From positions 248,001-312,000 of the forward strand of contig NZ_CP144373.1 in NCBI RefSeq assembly GCF_040450955.1: DNA of 64,000 nt. Reading direction: 5' to 3'. The position numbers were made by a program, and so were the translations under genes. The notes beneath the pieces were generated by a model. That model searched no databases, was not told where the DNA came from, and saw nothing but the letters and a program-made list of their open reading frames with translations. This document shows, piece after piece, positions 37,552 through 51,721 of this stretch. The DNA is from Thermodesulfovibrio sp. 3907-1M (lineage in GTDB: Bacteria; Nitrospirota; Thermodesulfovibrionia; Thermodesulfovibrionales; Thermodesulfovibrionaceae). The number at the start of each line of letters is the position of its first letter. Positions within the stretch are counted from its first letter, which is position 1.

Positions 37552-37588
37552 AGCCCCTGACGTCAGGGATTCCTGTTTGGACTTAAGG
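37552..37588. repeat. Direct repeat flanking the inserted palindrome, right copy
   Basis: It contains TCAGGGATTCCTGTTTGGAC at 37563-37582 and matches 37361-37397 apart from a few substitutions and a one-base shift near the end. Confidence 0.75.
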
Positions 37589-40873: not shown

Positions 40874-42292
40874 CTATTTTTCCTCTGATTTGGAAATATA
40901 GTCCAGTGCTTCTTTTTCATTTTTTTCGATAGCAATCTCTATTGCTTTTTTTGCTATCTCTAATAATTCCTTTGCCTTTTTTCTTGTCTCGTGAGATTTT
41001 TGAACTAATGAGGCGATTTGTTGCTGGGTTGAGAGGGGAAGAATGGGGATAAGTATTGATTTTATTTCTTTATCCGAAATTTTAGGTTGCCCTGTTTGAG
41101 TTTTTTTCTTTTCAATTTGGCTTTGGATAATCACCGATTGAAACAATATTTCCGCATACTCCGGGATGATTTCTTTGTTTAATTCCTTTTTAATTCTTAA
41201 TCTGCCTGTATTATTTGAACAAAAACCACCAGAAAGTTCTTTATAAATTCTGTTTGTTTTTCCAATAGTATCACCAATTATAGCAATAACAATATCATTT
41301 TCTTGAAGGCTATTAGCTTCATCTATCGGGTAGTTATCTTTAATGTAAATAATTTTAGATTCATCAATACCTGTCTTACCTGTGAGTTCTTTTATCCTAA
41401 TGTATGGTCTACTTGTTTTTTCTTCTGTGTAATAATCGGTAGATATAAAAATCCCCCGTCTAAAATCAAAAATTTTCTTTAAAAATTCTATCCGATGTTT
41501 TTTAGAAACAGTGCTTAAGATTTCCTCATACACAGGCTGGAAATATTCCGCATCTATTCTATAAGCAGAGAAGGTATCTGAAAGTTTAGCAGTATAGGTT
41601 TTTTTGTATCTTGGCTTGAAGTCTTTAAGCCCGAGTTCTTCTAAAAGCAAGCTTTCGGCTTGGGAGTAAAGAGATTCACTTTGTTTTAAAAGATTTTGAG
41701 CTTTTAAATACAGTATTTCTGTTCTTCTGATTATTTCTTCAGGTAATATAGGGATGGGTATTGTTTTTATATAACTTGGTGCAATATGAGGTTGTAATCC
41801 GCTATAAATTCCTCTTATCAAAATTTTCTGTCCATAGTTGGTAGTTAAAAAGACCCCTAAATAATAAGAGAATTTAAAAGTTGGTTTTGCTATTAATAAA
41901 TCTGAAGAAGCAATAATTTTTTTAGGCTCTCCTGTATAAACTGTTAAATCTCCTACATTCCCTGACCTTACAAATAGTATATCCCCTTTTTCTAACAAAT
42001 TTTTAGGCATTAGTTTTGCTTTTTCCTCAGAAATAAACTTTTTTTCTGATAGATCAAACATTAATGGTCTTACATTTTGGGCAAGTAAAAATAGATAATC
42101 TTGTTTTTCCTCTTCATATTCTCTTTTTATTTCCTTGGGATGAATAATTTCTTTTACAAGATTTTTGAAATATACAAATTTTTTCTTTAATAACTTCTGT
42201 TTTACTTCTAAATACTCTGGGTCGTAATACTCTGCATCAATCCTTTTTGCTCCTTCAAGTTCTGATAATTTTATAACGCTAAATACTGCCAT
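40874..42292 (-). CDS. Type I-like restriction-modification specificity subunit
   Basis: A 472-residue HsdS-type protein that recognises a split DNA target. Two target-recognition domains (about residues 10-190 and 235-430) are separated by a helical spacer, and a second helical region ends the protein. The repeated motifs RIDAEYYDPEYLEVK and RIDAEYFQPVYEEI mark the two halves. The ATG at 42292 is used because GGAGG overlaps the end of the methylase gene; a start at 42310 is in frame. Its partner is the gene upstream. Confidence 0.85.
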   Translation of the reverse strand: MAVFSVIKLSELEGAKRIDAEYYDPEYLEVKQKLLKKKFVYFKNLVKEIIHPKEIKREYEEEKQDYLFLLAQNVRPLMFDLSEKKFISEEKAKLMPKNLLEKGDILFVRSGNVGDLTVYTGEPKKIIASSDLLIAKPTFKFSYYLGVFLTTNYGQKILIRGIYSGLQPHIAPSYIKTIPIPILPEEIIRRTEILYLKAQNLLKQSESLYSQAESLLLEELGLKDFKPRYKKTYTAKLSDTFSAYRIDAEYFQPVYEEILSTVSKKHRIEFLKKIFDFRRGIFISTDYYTEEKTSRPYIRIKELTGKTGIDESKIIYIKDNYPIDEANSLQENDIVIAIIGDTIGKTNRIYKELSGGFCSNNTGRLRIKKELNKEIIPEYAEILFQSVIIQSQIEKKKTQTGQPKISDKEIKSILIPILPLSTQQQIASLVQKSHETRKKAKELLEIAKKAIEIAIEKNEKEALDYISKSEEK

Positions 42293-42293
42293 A

Positions 42294-44474
42294 TTACCTC
42301 CAAAAATCAAAATGATTATCGCCTTTTGCTAACTGTTCTTTGGCAAACTTAATGAAAGCCTCTGCTATTTCGTCCAAGTCGTGATCAATTACCGGGTGTC
42401 CGTATTCATCTAAGACAAGAGAGCCATCAGGGTTTTTCTTGTATCTATAGTCCCCGCTTTCATCCTTTACTGGCTTTTCATTAACAGCAAAGAAAATCGG
42501 ATAATCTATTTCCTGCATTACTTTTCCATCAAGCCAGTATTTCTTAAAGGCAGATGTTATCCTATCCTCATTTAGAACTAAGCTTATCTGTCCTGCTAAA
42601 GTCCTTTGAGAGATTTCTTTGGTGAGTTTGTTTATCTTACTTTGTAGTGTCTTTATTTCTTTTCTCAATTCAGCTTTTCTTGCAGGGTTTGCACTTTTTA
42701 ACTCCTCTTGTTTTTCTCTTAATACTTCGTCTAATTCGGATTTCTCCTGAACTAAAACATTAAGGGTTTTCTTTCCTCTGTTTTCTTCTTCTGTCTCTTC
42801 TGTTTCTTCACTTTCAGCCACATCTTCTGGTAATTCCTCAATTTCTTCTCTGCTTTCAAAATAGGTTTCCAAGAAAGAGTTTAGTTCTTCAGGAATTTCT
42901 TGTTCAGCTACCGAACTATCCCAGGTTAAATCTTGATATTTTTCTTTTAGTTTTTTCAAAAATTCTTCCCATTCACCTTCATATTTTGCCTTTGTCTGTT
43001 GAGTCTTCTCTTTTTCTTCATCTGTGTATTTTTGTAAGAACAAAATGCTTGTCTTTGTTCCTGTATGTGGTTTGAATGTGTTGACATGCAGTCCTACCAC
43101 TGCTAAAATTCTTGCCTCATCGATAATAAATCTGCGGATGTATTCAGCATTTGTATTGTTTAGTAAGCCTTGTGGCAAAACAATAGCCATTCTTCCACCA
43201 GGTCTTATAAATTGGAGAGAACGCTCTAAAAAGAGAATGTGCCTTTCGGTTTTGTTTTCCCACTTTCCATTTCTTTCAGCTAGTTTATAGAGTTTTAAGA
43301 TATCCCTTTCTTTTACTGTTCCAGCAAATGGTGGGTTGGTTATTAAGACATCAAAATCAAAGTACAAAAACTTTTCTTGATTTTCCCTGTCTTTTTCAAG
43401 ATTATTAGGAAATCTTAAGAGCCTGCTTCTTAAACCTGATTTTGTTTCATCTTCCCATGTATGAGGCGCTAATGAGTTGTCTTTATAGACATGGGACTTG
43501 CCATCCCCTACAATGAGGTTAATTGCTTTGGCTATCTTTACGGCTTTTTTTGCAAAATCAATTCCATAAATCTTGTTTTGAGCAAAGTTTCTCGCATTTT
43601 CAGGTAGAGGTTTACCGCTTATCATGCCTCCTGCAACCCACATTACAGAATGTAAAAGGAATCCAGCAGGACCACAAGCAGGATCAATAATAAACTCATC
43701 AGCTTTAGGATTAAGCATTTTAACAGCCATATCTGCAATGGGGCGGGGAGTAAAAAACTGCCCTTCTTTCTTCTTGGAAACCTGAGGAATTAGATACTCA
43801 AATGCTTCATCAATGATCCGAAGATTAGAATTGAAAAGTTTTATTTTTTCAAGAAAGGAAACGCAAATTTTTAAGTGGTCATTTCTTAACTCAATTTTAT
43901 CTGTTGGCTCAAAAATTCCTTGCCATTCTCTCTTTGCTCCTTCTAATAGATTTGCAATTGCTCTTTTTACTTGTTCTGGGCTTCTGTCACCAACGAAGAA
44001 TTCTAACTGATAATATGGGTCGTTAATCCCTCTCCATTCATCGTAGAGTTTGGCATAGATTAACTTAAAAGTCTCTTCAAATGGGTCTACTCCTGCATTG
44101 CCTAAAACAAGCTCCTCTAGGTCTAGCAGTATCTTTTTAAGGGTAGTTTTACCTTGCTTTAATTCATCATGCTCTTCAAGCCATCTAAGAGTCCATCTTT
44201 CAGTTAAAATATCTCTTAGTGTTTCTCCTGCCTTGGGTATTCTTGGAATTTCTACAAAGATATTAGGTTCTTCTCGGTGAAGCCTTATTGTTTCATTTCC
44301 ATTAGACCAAATACCAATCGGTGCTCCTTCAGCATTACAATAACTCTTTAATTGTTCTAACCCTGCGGTTCTTTGAGGTCTTTTTATTTCAAAAATTATG
44401 TAGGGATGCTGAAGGTCTTCTTGAAGGACAACTATATCTGCTAAACCAGAATCTCTTGAGCCAAAATAAATCAC
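42294..44474 (-). CDS. Restriction nuclease-adenine methyltransferase fusion, 5' end irregular
   Basis: A fusion of an HsdR-N/PD-(D/E)xK-type nuclease domain (Asp13 and EIK with Glu29 and Lys31 from the GTG at 44474) with an N6-adenine methyltransferase (DPACGPAGF near residue 263 and NPPF near 378). A C-terminal coiled region is followed by the target-recognition partner hsdS. No separate HsdR or helicase is present, so the layout resembles BcgI-like type IIB enzymes. The frame remains family-like upstream of the GTG (KPEEIVRQLWVYRLLNEY) to about 44564 without a normal start codon, so the gene may be truncated or use an unusual start. Confidence 0.78.
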   Translation of the reverse strand: MIYFGSRDSGLADIVVLQEDLQHPYIIFEIKRPQRTAGLEQLKSYCNAEGAPIGIWSNGNETIRLHREEPNIFVEIPRIPKAGETLRDILTERWTLRWLEEHDELKQGKTTLKKILLDLEELVLGNAGVDPFEETFKLIYAKLYDEWRGINDPYYQLEFFVGDRSPEQVKRAIANLLEGAKREWQGIFEPTDKIELRNDHLKICVSFLEKIKLFNSNLRIIDEAFEYLIPQVSKKKEGQFFTPRPIADMAVKMLNPKADEFIIDPACGPAGFLLHSVMWVAGGMISGKPLPENARNFAQNKIYGIDFAKKAVKIAKAINLIVGDGKSHVYKDNSLAPHTWEDETKSGLRSRLLRFPNNLEKDRENQEKFLYFDFDVLITNPPFAGTVKERDILKLYKLAERNGKWENKTERHILFLERSLQFIRPGGRMAIVLPQGLLNNTNAEYIRRFIIDEARILAVVGLHVNTFKPHTGTKTSILFLQKYTDEEKEKTQQTKAKYEGEWEEFLKKLKEKYQDLTWDSSVAEQEIPEELNSFLETYFESREEIEELPEDVAESEETEETEEENRGKKTLNVLVQEKSELDEVLREKQEELKSANPARKAELRKEIKTLQSKINKLTKEISQRTLAGQISLVLNEDRITSAFKKYWLDGKVMQEIDYPIFFAVNEKPVKDESGDYRYKKNPDGSLVLDEYGHPVIDHDLDEIAEAFIKFAKEQLAKGDNHFDFWR

Positions 44475-44559
44475 CCTTTCAACATCTATCCTTTCTTTCG
44501 GATAGTTATATTCGTTTAATAATCTATAAACCCAAAGTTGCCTTACAATTTCTTCAGGT

Positions 44560-44724
44560 TTTGCGACAGTCGCCAGATATGGCGACTATGATATTACATT
44601 TTTCGACTCGGAGAAGATAATTCTCCGGGTTGAAAGAGAGATTGGTGAGCCTAGATGGCTCACTAACCTCGTCCTTAAAAGGGATTTAAAGAGAGCGGCA
44701 GAGATAGCCGCTCTCTTTAAATAA
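44560..44724 (+). other. Open frame overlapping the hairpin run, possible gene remnant
   Basis: A plus-strand frame without a start codon reads GDYDITFFDSEKIILRV and later RDLKRAAEIAALFK before a stop five bases ahead of a terminator. It could be the 3' end of a gene cut off by the restriction genes. The same DNA contains four perfect hairpins, so it may instead be noncoding. No family is recognised. Confidence 0.35.
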
Positions 44725-44762
44725 AAGTCCTGCCCCACCCCCCAGGGGCAGGATTTTTTTTT
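44569..44762 (+). ncRNA. Candidate structured RNA: four hairpins and a terminator
   Basis: Four perfect stems with different sequences follow each other at 36-45 base spacing: GTCGCCA-GATA-TGGCGAC (44569-44586), CGGAGAA-GATAA-TTCTCCG (44609-44627), GTGAGCC-TAGAT-GGCTCAC (44645-44663) and a ten-pair AGAGAGCGGC-AGAGATA-GCCGCTCTCT (44690-44716). Every apex contains AGAT, three of them AGATA (in two cases counting the closing base). An intrinsic terminator follows. No promoter is clear upstream. This layout resembles protein-sponge or multi-hairpin regulatory RNAs. Function is unknown. Confidence 0.5.
44729..44762 (+). terminator. Strong intrinsic terminator
   Basis: CCTGCCCC (44729-44736) pairs with GGGGCAGG (44745-44752), then A and nine T. 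It ends a plus-strand transcript. On the minus strand the flank is less T-rich, so it may be only a weak terminator for the gene at 44781. Confidence 0.9.
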
Positions 44763-44780: not shown

Positions 44781-45002
44781 TTAGTGGTTAATCATAATAG
44801 GTATTTCGTTACCGTCTTCATCAACTATGTATACTTCAGCAGAACTTATAACTTTGTCTATGTTTTCTTCAACTTTTTGGGGGTCTACTCCTACTTCAAT
44901 AAGTGCTTTTTTAAATACAGATTTAAGCTTCTCATTTTCTTTAAGGATTTCTAGCTCCAGTTCTGTTAACCCAAAGTCTGTTAAGTTTTCCTTTTCTTTC
45001 AC
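44781..45002 (-). CDS. Small acidic hypothetical protein
   Basis: A 73-residue acidic protein with a helical N-terminal two-thirds (LTELELEILKENEKLKSV) and a short C-terminal strand region ending DEDGNEIPIMINH. It starts with GTG behind AAGGAGG and lies 32 bases downstream of the SbcD-like gene on the same strand. No family is recognised. Confidence 0.55.
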   Translation of the reverse strand: MKEKENLTDFGLTELELEILKENEKLKSVFKKALIEVGVDPQKVEENIDKVISSAEVYIVDEDGNEIPIMINH

Positions 45003-45034: not shown

Positions 45035-46078
45035 TTATATCACTACTTGTTTATCTTTTGTTATCTCGATTAGTCTGCTTTTTGCGATGGTTTCAATCTC
45101 ATCTGGATCACAAAATTCGACTATCTTTATTTTGTTTTTTAGAGAGTCAGTCATTTCTATTCCTATTGACTTCATCAGTGTTTCACACTTTTCAATTAGT
45201 GTGGTTTTCTTTGAGATTCCTGCTACCCTTACAGTGTGAGTAGGCATCACTATCTTCTGAATCTTTACGTTGTCTCCCTTAAACCGCTGCTCTACTTCTC
45301 TTAACAGTTCATCCTGGTTTACATTCTCTTTTAACTTCACCACCACCCTTACAATGTCTTCAGGATTATAGCTAAGCTCTGGAATATTGTTCTCACTTAC
45401 TTCAATCTGATATATGTGTCTTACGGGTAGCTCTACGAAGTTGTGGCTGTCTTTCTTAAGGTCGTGTATCCAGAAACCTTTTGGTTCATCTTCACCTATC
45501 TGTCTTCTAATAGGACTACCTGCGTAAAATATTTTGCTGCCAATTTTCTGTGCCCTGTGTATGTGACCCAATAAACACCACTTAACTGAAAGCCCTTCAA
45601 GGGATTCTTGAGTATAGTCAAACTCTGGTAATACGCTTCCTGAGTTAACTACTGCCTTATCTACCGTTCCATGAGATACAAACAGATGCGGAGTACTGCT
45701 ATCTAATTTTAGACTTTCATCTATCATACCACGTAACTTGTTTAACTCATCAGCAACAGAGACATCAGGATTCTTCCCAAGTATTGGTAAGCTTGCAATA
45801 GCCAACACTGCACCTACATAGCTTTTTGAGAACTTCCCAGCCTTACTTAGGTAAACTACTTCTGGAGTGCTGCTTATGTAAACTGGATACTTGGTGGATA
45901 CATGTTTGATTAAGTCGAGATTGCCCCCATCATGACTTTTAGTTCCTATTAAGACAAATACACTTGAGTATTCAGCAAGAGCTTGTATAAAGTGTAAAGC
46001 ATCTATCAGCGCTTTTGAATCATGATACTGCTTGGAATGCGTTACATCACCTGCAATAATACTAACCAGTGGTTTTGT
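45035..46078 (-). pseudogene. SbcD/Mre11-like metallophosphoesterase lacking its N terminus
   Basis: The frame carries the calcineurin-type motifs AGDVTH, GTKSHDGGN (in place of the usual GNHD) and LLGHIHRAQK, then the capping domain typical of SbcD. The first motif (DxH) and a start codon are absent: upstream of about 46080 the sequence becomes that of the divergent TIR-like gene. An internal GTG at 45808 could start a shorter protein without the active site. No SbcC is adjacent. It is probably a truncated nuclease gene. Confidence 0.65.
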
Positions 46079-46082
46079 CTCT

Positions 46083-46964
46083 ATGTATGAATATGGAAAC
46101 GAAGTACTTTTATCTAGTTCTAATGTAGGAGAAATAATTCAGCAGGCAACTTATAGAAAACCTGCAAGTGTTTTTGAAAAGTTTTACAGAGTACTTAAAG
46201 CTTTAAATAACCTAGAAGAATATTATATGGAACCTATATCCCCTAGAAGTTTATGTAGAAGTTACGAAGACTCTATATCAATTTTATTCGAGAACGAGTT
46301 CAAGAATTGCCTTGATTTTTCTGATACGGTTTTAAATAAGGTACTTATTCCTTATTTAGCTGCCATGAGTTACTCAATCACTGATGGAGAGGTTATTAAT
46401 CTAATTAAAGATGGACTTAAACCTTTAGGATATGTAAAAGCTGAAAGAGGCATTTTCAATAATTCTCCTGTAAAACCAGAATATATTCAAATAACTCCAA
46501 AAGGCTATGAAAAAATTGAAGAACTCAGAAAAGAGCTGGAGTTAGAAACCAATAAAGTCTTTGTTGCTATGCCTTTTAAAGAGGACGATAAAGAACTACA
46601 AGAAATATATCAGACTATTCAAGATGTTTTAGAAAATTTAGGATACAGTCTTATTCGAGTAGATAAAATTGATTACACTGGTTACATAATAGATAAAATA
46701 ATGAGTGAAATAAAAGAAAGCAGATTTGTGATATGTGTTTTGACTCCCGAAAAAGGTAGAGAGGATCCAAATCTCAATGTAATGTTTGAATTTGGATACG
46801 CTGCGGGATTAAATAAGGGAATAATTCCTTTATGTAATGAAATTTTTAAGGATAAGTTGCCTTTTGATATAAAACAATTTAATACCATTTTTTATGAAAA
46901 TAAAGAAGAGTTAAAGGAACGATTAACTAATAGAATAAGAAATATTTATGGTAAAAGAGTCTGA
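46083..46964 (+). CDS. TIR-like/nucleoside deoxyribosyltransferase-like protein
   Basis: A 293-residue protein from the ATG at 46083; no ribosome site decides the start, and the frame opens at 46032. The C-terminal domain begins VFVAMPFKEDDKE (near residue 158) and contains SRFVICVLTPE and VMFEFGYAAGLNKGI, in which the Glu near 236 matches the catalytic position of TIR-like NAD hydrolases and deoxyribosyltransferases. The N-terminal 150 residues are helical and end in a winged-helix-like ITPKGYEKIEEL. It may be a defence effector triggered by its N-terminal part. The function is inferred. Confidence 0.68.
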   Translation: MYEYGNEVLLSSSNVGEIIQQATYRKPASVFEKFYRVLKALNNLEEYYMEPISPRSLCRSYEDSISILFENEFKNCLDFSDTVLNKVLIPYLAAMSYSITDGEVINLIKDGLKPLGYVKAERGIFNNSPVKPEYIQITPKGYEKIEELRKELELETNKVFVAMPFKEDDKELQEIYQTIQDVLENLGYSLIRVDKIDYTGYIIDKIMSEIKESRFVICVLTPEKGREDPNLNVMFEFGYAAGLNKGIIPLCNEIFKDKLPFDIKQFNTIFYENKEELKERLTNRIRNIYGKRV

Positions 46965-49652: not shown

Positions 49653-49757
49653 TTTTATATAAGGAAATGAAAAAAGTATAGAAATTTTAGAAAAAGCAGA
49701 AAAAGGATTGAGAAAATTTTAGATGATGTGTGGAAAATTTAATTGCAGGGAAAAAAT

Positions 49758-51721
49758 ATGAAGGCATCTGAAACAAAAATTCAACCTATTCTTGAAGGAA
49801 CAAAACAATATGTTGTTCCACTTTTTCAACGTTCATATGACTGGGGTAATAACGAATGGGAAATATTATGGAATGATATTTTGGAACTTTACGAAATGGA
49901 AAATCCCCGTACTCATTTTTTGGGTTCTATAGTAACAATGCCAACTACTTCTGTCCCTGAAGGTGTTACGAAGTATCTTTTAATAGATGGACAACAACGA
50001 CTTACAACACTTTTTATTATACTGGCTTTGATACGTGATAAGTCGCCCCGGCTTGCTGATGAGATAACAAACACTCTTTTGACTAATCCATATAAGCAAG
50101 GAATTGATTATTTAAAACTTTTACCGACAAATGTTGATAGAGATATTTTTGAAAAATTAATCAGATACGGATACAATGAGATAGAAGAAATAAATAATTC
50201 TCATAACATTTATAAGGCATATAAATATTTTGAAAGAAAATTGAGTAATGATAATTTTGATATAGAAAGAATTAAAAATTTAATTATAAATAATTTAATA
50301 GTTGTTAGTATTGTCCTTGATAGAGATGATAATCCACATCTCGTTTTTGAGAGTCTTAACGCAAAAGGACGTGCTTTAACCCAGTCTGATTTAATCCGTA
50401 ACTATTTCCTTATGAAAATCCATATAAATGACCAAGAAAAAATATATTCAGAATATTGGAAACCAATGCAAGATTCTCTCAGTGAAAATCTAACAGAGTT
50501 TATTAGACATTATTTAATGAAAAATGGTAAACAAGTTAAAAAAATGAAATTTACTTTACACTAAAAGAAGAAGTTGAAAATAATAATCCATTAGAATATC
50601 TCAAAAATCTGTCAATTTATTCAAAATATTATGAAAAGTTAATTAATCCAGAAAAAGAAGAAGATTTGAAAATAAAAAGAATGCTCAAGCGTCTCAATAG
50701 ACTTGAAGTAACAACAGCATATCCTTTCTTATTAAATGTTTTTAGAGAATATGAAGAAAGAATAATAAATAAAGAAACTCTGATAGAGATATTGAAAATC
50801 CTTGAAAATTTTATAATTCGGAGATTTATTTGTAATATCCCGACAAATCAACTTAATAAAATTTTTCCTCCCCTTTATTCTCAGGCAAAAAGGATGGAAG
50901 GAGATTTGCTTAGTAACATAAAAACTATACTTCAAAGTAAAAATTACCCAAAGGATGCAGAATTTAAAGCGAAATTAGTAAATAAGAAACTTTATGGTAG
51001 TGGAGACCTACAAGTTAAAGCTAAGTTAATTCTTGAGTCTATTGAAGAAAATTATGCTCATAAAGAGCAGGTGCTGTTTGATGACCTTACTATTGAACAT
51101 ATAATGCCCCAAACATTAAGCGAATGGTGGCAAAAGCACTTAGGAGAAGATTGGGGAATAACTCATGAACTTTTGCTTCATACAATAGGCAACCTAACAC
51201 TAACGGCATATAACCCAGAACTCTCCAATGCAGATTTTGAAACAAAAAAACAATACTTGGGTAATAGTCATCTTGAAATGAATAAATATTTTAATGAAAT
51301 AACTTCTTGGAAAAAGGAAGATATTGAAAAAAGGGCTCAATACTTATCAGAAATCGCCATTTCTATATGGCCATATTTTGGAGATGAAAATTTTACCCAA
51401 TATAATGAGGATATTACAGGGACTAGACCCAAAAAATTATACATTTTAAGAAAACAGTTTGAAGTCCTATCTTGGAGAGATGTAATGGAAAAAACGATTA
51501 ATTGTATTATAGAATCAGACCTAGAAAAATTTGAAGAAATAATACGCCAGTTTCCGAGATTTGTTGGTAGAAATAAAAATCAATTTCGTCAAGTACGCGA
51601 ACTTATCAATGGTGCTTTTATGGAAGTAAATTTATCTGCAAAAGATATCTATAATTTTTGTATCCAAATGATAGAGACTTTAGGTCTTACATCAGAAGAT
51701 TGGAGAGTTGAATTTAGTTAA
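49758..51721 (+). pseudogene. GmrSD-like (DUF262-DUF1524) gene split by a poly-A frameshift
   Basis: The N-terminal DUF262 half has VVPLFQRSYDW and LIDGQQRLTTLF near residues 20-90. The C-terminal DUF1524 half has the HNH-type IEHIMPQTL and IGNLTLTAYNPELSN. These form type IV restriction enzymes that attack modified DNA. The frame shifts at a run of seven A (50538-50544); adding one A restores NEIYFTLKEEVEN and links both halves. The halves are otherwise intact, so slippage, phase variation or a sequence error are alternatives to a dead gene. Confidence 0.75.

Follow-up and report, generated by a model that had tools for sequence, protein, structure and literature searches.

A densely folded gene tail in a bacterial chromosome, likely of foreign origin, and spacers encoding its peptide variants in an RT-Cas1 type III-D array of the same genome

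Single-stranded RNA phages (Leviviricetes) carry RdRp, maturation and coat genes and have coding RNA packed with local stable hairpins. Obelisks, including those of hot springs, are small (~1 kb) coding RNAs that are matched by CRISPR spacers, some of them of type III (PMC13096302). For RT-Cas1 fusions of the kind described herein, spacer uptake from RNA is possible (PMC11014452; PMC5513706), and DNA databases account for almost none of the spacers in RT-Cas1 type III repertoires (Silas et al. 2017, PMC5513706). What these systems record is an open question. The locus in the present study resembles those repertoires in its RT-fused Cas1, its type III affiliation and its near lack of spacer matches in DNA databases; it differs in that a piece of one protein family lies in the same chromosome, which allows several spacers to be assigned to that family. 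As in the Leviviricetes, which are a conceivable target of RT-CRISPR systems, a densely structured coding RNA has been observed, a feature that is not unique to these phages, but no levivirus gene is seen in the fragment, which comprises 51 codons of one gene. Compared with Obelisks, the estimated target is of similar size, whereas the circular Obelisk RNA folds as a rod and the fragment into successive local hairpins. The GYxDxG motif of Oblin-1 is absent from the fragment, which has RYGDYD instead and represents only the 3' end of the frame, and the hot-spring Oblins (HsOblins) likewise lack this motif (PMC13096302). The sponge RNAs CsrB and RsmZ share the row of hairpins followed by a terminator; in contrast, the fragment is coding, is present in a single copy and has a broken left end.

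The 64-kb window (the whole stretch of DNA that was analysed) contains 63 perfect stems (at least 7 bp, loop of 3-9), or about one perfect 7-bp stem per kb, and five of the 63 were observed within the 190 nt of the hairpin run, where about 0.2 would be expected. The segment 44540-44770 folds at -115 kcal/mol, compared with -59.5 +/- 4.6 for dinucleotide shuffles (z -12; reached by 0 of 200). The most stable 156-nt stretch among the 819 tested lies in this region, which is folded in silico even at 65 C. The earlier note on this DNA had thus described a real hairpin run, with correct coordinates and stems (Table 1), and was right to call the clustering far from random; stems of the 7 to 10 bp that it gave are present, but some are longer, and the fourth extends to 16 bp. 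The intrinsic terminator that it placed at the end is predicted together with its T tract, but in both directions. This terminator-like hairpin may be a property of the foreign fragment or of the host gene at 44781-45002, and it was dropped as a proof of the end of the element because the prediction is bidirectional. Promoter-like sites are no more frequent at the hairpin run than by chance, tRNAs were the only matches in the Rfam search, and no second copy of the fragment was found in its own genome, the genus or the phylum sample.

Table 1. Positions in the window of the hairpins, the reading frame and the adjoining hsdM gene
Feature	Position	Strand	Description
hsdM, type I modification subunit without 5' end	42294..44567	-	Pfam N6_Mtase and HSDR_N_2; comparison with G001
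Breakpoint between hsdM (left) and putative foreign fragment (right)	44567..44568		GCGAC-A-GTCGC inverted microhomology
Putative foreign fragment	44568..44724	+	Frame 44569-44724, last 51 codons and stop; spacer peptide variants, recoding test
Hairpin 1	44568..44587	+	8 bp, loop GATA; stem retained in spacers 6211 and 5660
Hairpin 2	44599..44637	+	17 bp including 3 G-U, loop GATAA; core stem probably retained in spacer 7747
Hairpin 3	44642..44666	+	10 bp, 1 G-U, loop TAGAT
Short hairpin	44671..44685	+	6 bp, loop AAA
Hairpin 4	44684..44722	+	AGAGATA loop on a stem of 16 perfect bp, the longest of its kind found in the window
Terminator-like hairpin	44728..44762 (hairpin 44728-44753, then T tract)		Predicted in both directions

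The hairpins lie over a plus-strand frame of 156 nt that translates to VARYGDYDITFFDSEKIILRVEREIGEPRWLTNLVLKRDLKRAAEIAALFK followed by a stop codon. The open length of this frame alone has little meaning, and the frame is taken as real because variants of its peptide are encoded by CRISPR spacers. The array concerned (G000:C1:315650-318010, in L010) lies 24 kb from the fragment in the same genome, has the repeat GTCTCAGCCCCTGACGTCAGGGATTCCTGTTTGGAC and contains 25 distinct spacers, six of which encode peptide variants (VAKYGDYD, YGDYDVIYFNT, EPLWLTRLIL, LTRLVLYHDLK, VTQLVLMHDL and LVLYKDLKRAAE), all in sense orientation and each with a score above those of all 150 control peptides. At the DNA level, three of these six spacers also match the fragment, each above all 190 control DNA segments, with an identity of only 79-88%. 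Further placements are more conditional. Spacer 7747 (TEEELRKVPF), which overlaps spacer 7609 (...YFNT) at CACGG, is probably its continuation; spacer 5660 (VVVASDYD) resembles a shortened variant of the peptide; and spacers 6420 and 7195 (VETLLGVPR) are possible further variants, for which 5 of the 150 controls were as good. About one quarter of the spacers in the array map within 150 nt, and several overlap one another as variants, so that, given even sampling and one source family, the target size is estimated at some 600 nt (binomial range about 300-1400).

Searches with the 51-aa peptide in Pfam, PHROGs and PDB sequences, of the kind the earlier note had proposed for the frame, revealed no significant match (none in Pfam; best E 0.23 in PHROGs), and this PHROG lead, 27756, is without a member in the genus. 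The AF2 model of the fragment shows strands and one helix at low confidence (mean pLDDT 69), and fold searches with it gave no significant match. The fr coat protein appeared among the weak fold matches (E 1.2, Z 2.7; non-significant) beside unrelated folds, and a coat-protein match is not claimed.

The RNA structure is under selection in addition to the protein. The frame folds at -84.7 kcal/mol, compared with -32 kcal/mol for synonymous recodings with host codon usage, -39.7 kcal/mol with matched third-position GC and -49.9 kcal/mol with its own codons reshuffled, and none of 500 recodings in each of the three designs reached the observed fold (z values of -5.0, -8.2 and -9.9 across the designs). 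When 40 control coding windows of the same genome were recoded, the mean z was 0.06 and the minimum -1.8. Synonymous recoding therefore destroys the fold (z -5 to -10), which shows selection on the RNA structure as well as on the protein. The homologous spacers are consistent with this result. The stem of hairpin 1 is AGTCGCCA/TGGCGACT in the fragment, TAGTCGCCA/TGGCGACTA in spacer 6211 and GTCGTAGTC/GACTACGAC in spacer 5660. In spacer 6211, it has 9 bp, a loop AGTA and pairs that differ from those of the fragment; in spacer 5660, it also has 9 bp with differing pairs and a loop GCAAGT, and outer pairs restore the stem length although the frame is shorter. The core of hairpin 2, CGGAG/CTCCG, is probably retained in spacer 7747, if this spacer is correctly placed, with a loop one codon shorter (probably GAAGAG in place of GATAA). 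Thus, selection on an RNA structure, as supposed in the earlier note, is supported by both the recoding and the retained stem of hairpin 1, while the proposed fixed loop around changing stems is reversed: the AGAT(A) motif is shared by loops of this copy but is not kept in the homologous spacers, and the comparison supports the stem, not the loop, as the conserved element, with two or three sequences per stem and hence no covariation test. A conserved frame with stems broken by synonymous changes had been named beforehand as evidence against a selected structure; the frame is indeed conserved, but spacers covering hairpin 1 retain its stem, and the same is probably true for hairpin 2. Folding of most other spacers of the array is unremarkable (mean z about -0.3 to -0.4), and dense folding is therefore established only for the gene tail considered here. 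A general hairpin character of the spacers in this array was considered and rejected (3 stems of at least 6 bp, with 1.05 expected).

Next to the array lie cas2 and the gene for a Cas6-RT-Cas1 protein of 843 aa, and genes for III-D Cas7 and Cas5 proteins, Csx19, Cas10 and a Card1-like CARF nuclease follow farther on. In other words, the spacers that match the fragment stand in the same genome next to RT-Cas1 and a type III effector. An AT-rich stretch between the array and cas2 is presumably the leader, judging from its position and from the same layout in the same-genus genome G008. With the leader on this side, the crRNAs would run opposite to the direction in which the spacers code, the orientation that type III RNA targeting needs.

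The left edge of the fragment is defined by comparison with another genome of the genus, G001 (L027), in which hsdM is intact (803-aa frame). The alignment of this gene to the window ends exactly at 44567, the last base before hairpin 1, and the G001 gene runs on upstream by about 50 codons that are absent from the copy in the window, where no in-frame ATG, GTG or TTG occurs before 44474. Relative to this sister genome, an insertion or replacement has thus been observed at the left edge. The right edge is undefined, because a counterpart of the next gene (73 aa) is missing from the genus and either strand could use the terminator. The hsdM/hsdS pair of the window (40874-44567) is damaged at the 5' end of hsdM, with no hsdR among the neighbouring ORFs examined, and the homologous pair of G001 is located near the conjugation genes TraG and TraH.

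Herein, we propose that the hairpin run is likely the 3' end of a foreign gene with a densely folded message, preserved in the chromosome as a fossil, a reading for which the frame, the structure, the spacer homology, the breakpoint and the cas locus are the observed basis. A gene remnant had been allowed as the competing view in the earlier note, and the conserved frame and the breakpoint at 44567 speak in its favour. In the source element, the plus-strand RNA of the gene would have been folded into back-to-back stable hairpins, selected besides the protein. The host would have met many variants of this element and recorded them as spacers of the Cas6-RT-Cas1 type III-D system in antisense-crRNA orientation, and these spacers may have been acquired from RNA. 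The last 51 codons of the gene would have been joined to hsdM by recombination, replacing the 5' end of hsdM. The fragment probably has no present function, and it could stem from a small RNA replicon or from a structured transcript that was highly expressed.

Protein and pattern searches covered 50,697 records of phages and 72,556 of plasmids, the IMG/VR collection, 396 phylum genomes and genomes of about 85,000 prokaryote species; within their reach they revealed no relative of the fragment, an absence that is weak evidence given the short 51-aa query. The spacers as DNA have no match in phage records or in other genomes of the order. Several candidates were rejected. Fourteen pattern matches in genome contigs are methyltransferase-like or unrelated YGDYDV motifs; short DNA matches (query 8-31) in other genomes of the order lie in an apparent aprA gene (DAVARYGDY) and represent a codon coincidence; and the matches in G019 (query 111-136) and G012 fall in the start of another coding gene and within a gene read as a sensor kinase, respectively.

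Two kinds of source have to be weighed. The first, to which we assign a probability a little below even, is a DNA element, such as a phage, plasmid or transposon, in which the 3' end of a gene was unusually structured and followed by a terminator of the element; the fragment would be an ordinary recombination remnant, and the spacers would be drawn from transcripts or DNA of the element. Such a source explains the terminator-like hairpin immediately after the stop codon, no retro-integration is needed, and type III activity also extends to transcribed DNA elements (PMC5513706). The region is moreover mobile, since the homologous hsdM of G001 lies near TraG and TraH. However, no DNA relative was found, and folding comparable to that of the fragment is absent from the 40 ordinary coding windows of this genome.

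The second source, for which this DNA element is the main rival, would be an RNA replicon, either an RNA phage or an Obelisk-like element, whose cDNA was joined to the chromosome while RT-Cas1 recorded relatives from RNA. This is a sharper form of the fossil explanation, and we consider it plausible, though somewhat less likely than not and slightly behind the DNA element. The coding strand is densely folded under selection, the spacers stand next to RT-Cas1 and are all in one sense, the overlapping variant spacers suggest a small target, and the DNA collections searched yielded no relative. On the other hand, neither an RdRp nor another RNA-virus gene is seen in the 51 codons at hand, behind the stop codon stands a T-tract terminator of the kind found in DNA-encoded genes, the database absence weighs little for so short a query, and traces of retro-integration (tail, duplication) are absent.

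Two functional explanations fare far worse. A co-opted fragment, read in minus sense ahead of the truncated hsdM to give an RNA complementary to the plus strand of the element as an antisense guard, agrees with the orientation of the fragment antisense to hsdM and with that only; a minus-strand terminator is predicted just before the fragment, and we regard this role as very unlikely. A functional non-coding sponge RNA of the CsrB type, as suggested in the earlier note from the hairpin row ending in a terminator, is the least probable of all, because the frame is conserved at the amino-acid level in six spacers, none of the loops in Table 1 is a GGA loop, the loops change among homologues (for hairpin 1, GATA, AGTA and GCAAGT), promoter-like sites are at chance level, and the single copy in one genome begins at a breakpoint in hsdM.

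With the fossil explanation, one genome supplies both the memory, in its variant spacers, and part of the remembered gene itself, with its protein sequence and RNA structure. Such a folded gene tail beside an RNA-capable CRISPR memory hints at an unknown, possibly RNA-based, parasite, for which the fragment is a concrete candidate. Judging from its aprA-bearing relatives and the temperature-stable fold, the host is probably a thermophile of the Nitrospirota that reduces sulfate. If a piece of an RNA-replicon genome of this thermophilic bacterium was copied to DNA and fixed in the chromosome, with relatives in the RT-Cas1 type III-D array, which we consider plausible though somewhat less likely than not, the bacterium would carry an endogenous fossil of RNA-virus-like kind and, linked to it, a CRISPR memory derived from RNA. 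To our knowledge, no DNA fossil of an RNA replicon in a bacterial chromosome has been described, and a literature search gave none. The fragment can serve directly as a probe in hot-spring metatranscriptomes and dsRNA libraries, and might provide a handle on the source of RT-Cas1 spacers.

Several minor observations have also been made. A second RT-Cas1 array of the genus is present at a contig end in G008 (C23; L053 16040-16624) and contains several strongly hairpinned spacers (e.g. CCCACC-AAA-GGTGGG and TGGGAT...ATCCCA). None of its spacers matches the 51-aa peptide, and a different structured RNA may thus be recorded there. The leader of the array near the fragment occurs in two copies (L010 6488-6626 and 8010-8160; G000:C1 about 316487 and 318009), one of them intra-array and followed by REP-like repeats, which gives the array the appearance of a fusion of two. 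The CRISPR repeat (TGACGTCAGGGATTCCTGTTTGGA) also occurs in stray copies outside the array, most of them joined to a dispersed inverted repeat of REP-like type (gttgtcattccgagg...ctcggaatgac), at 37558-37581 of the window, at G000:C1:748804, 1029820-1030181 and 1824194-1825938, and at L010 5525-5635 and 6488-6985; either the CRISPR repeat was captured by a mobile repeat, or these copies reflect off-target Cas1-type integration. Elsewhere in the window, a 310-aa protein with a C-terminal CAP12/Pycsar-type TIR domain (46032-46964) is a likely defence effector, and a GmrSD type IV restriction gene (49743-51721) is present as two ORFs, one for the N-terminal and one for the C-terminal domain, and is probably broken.
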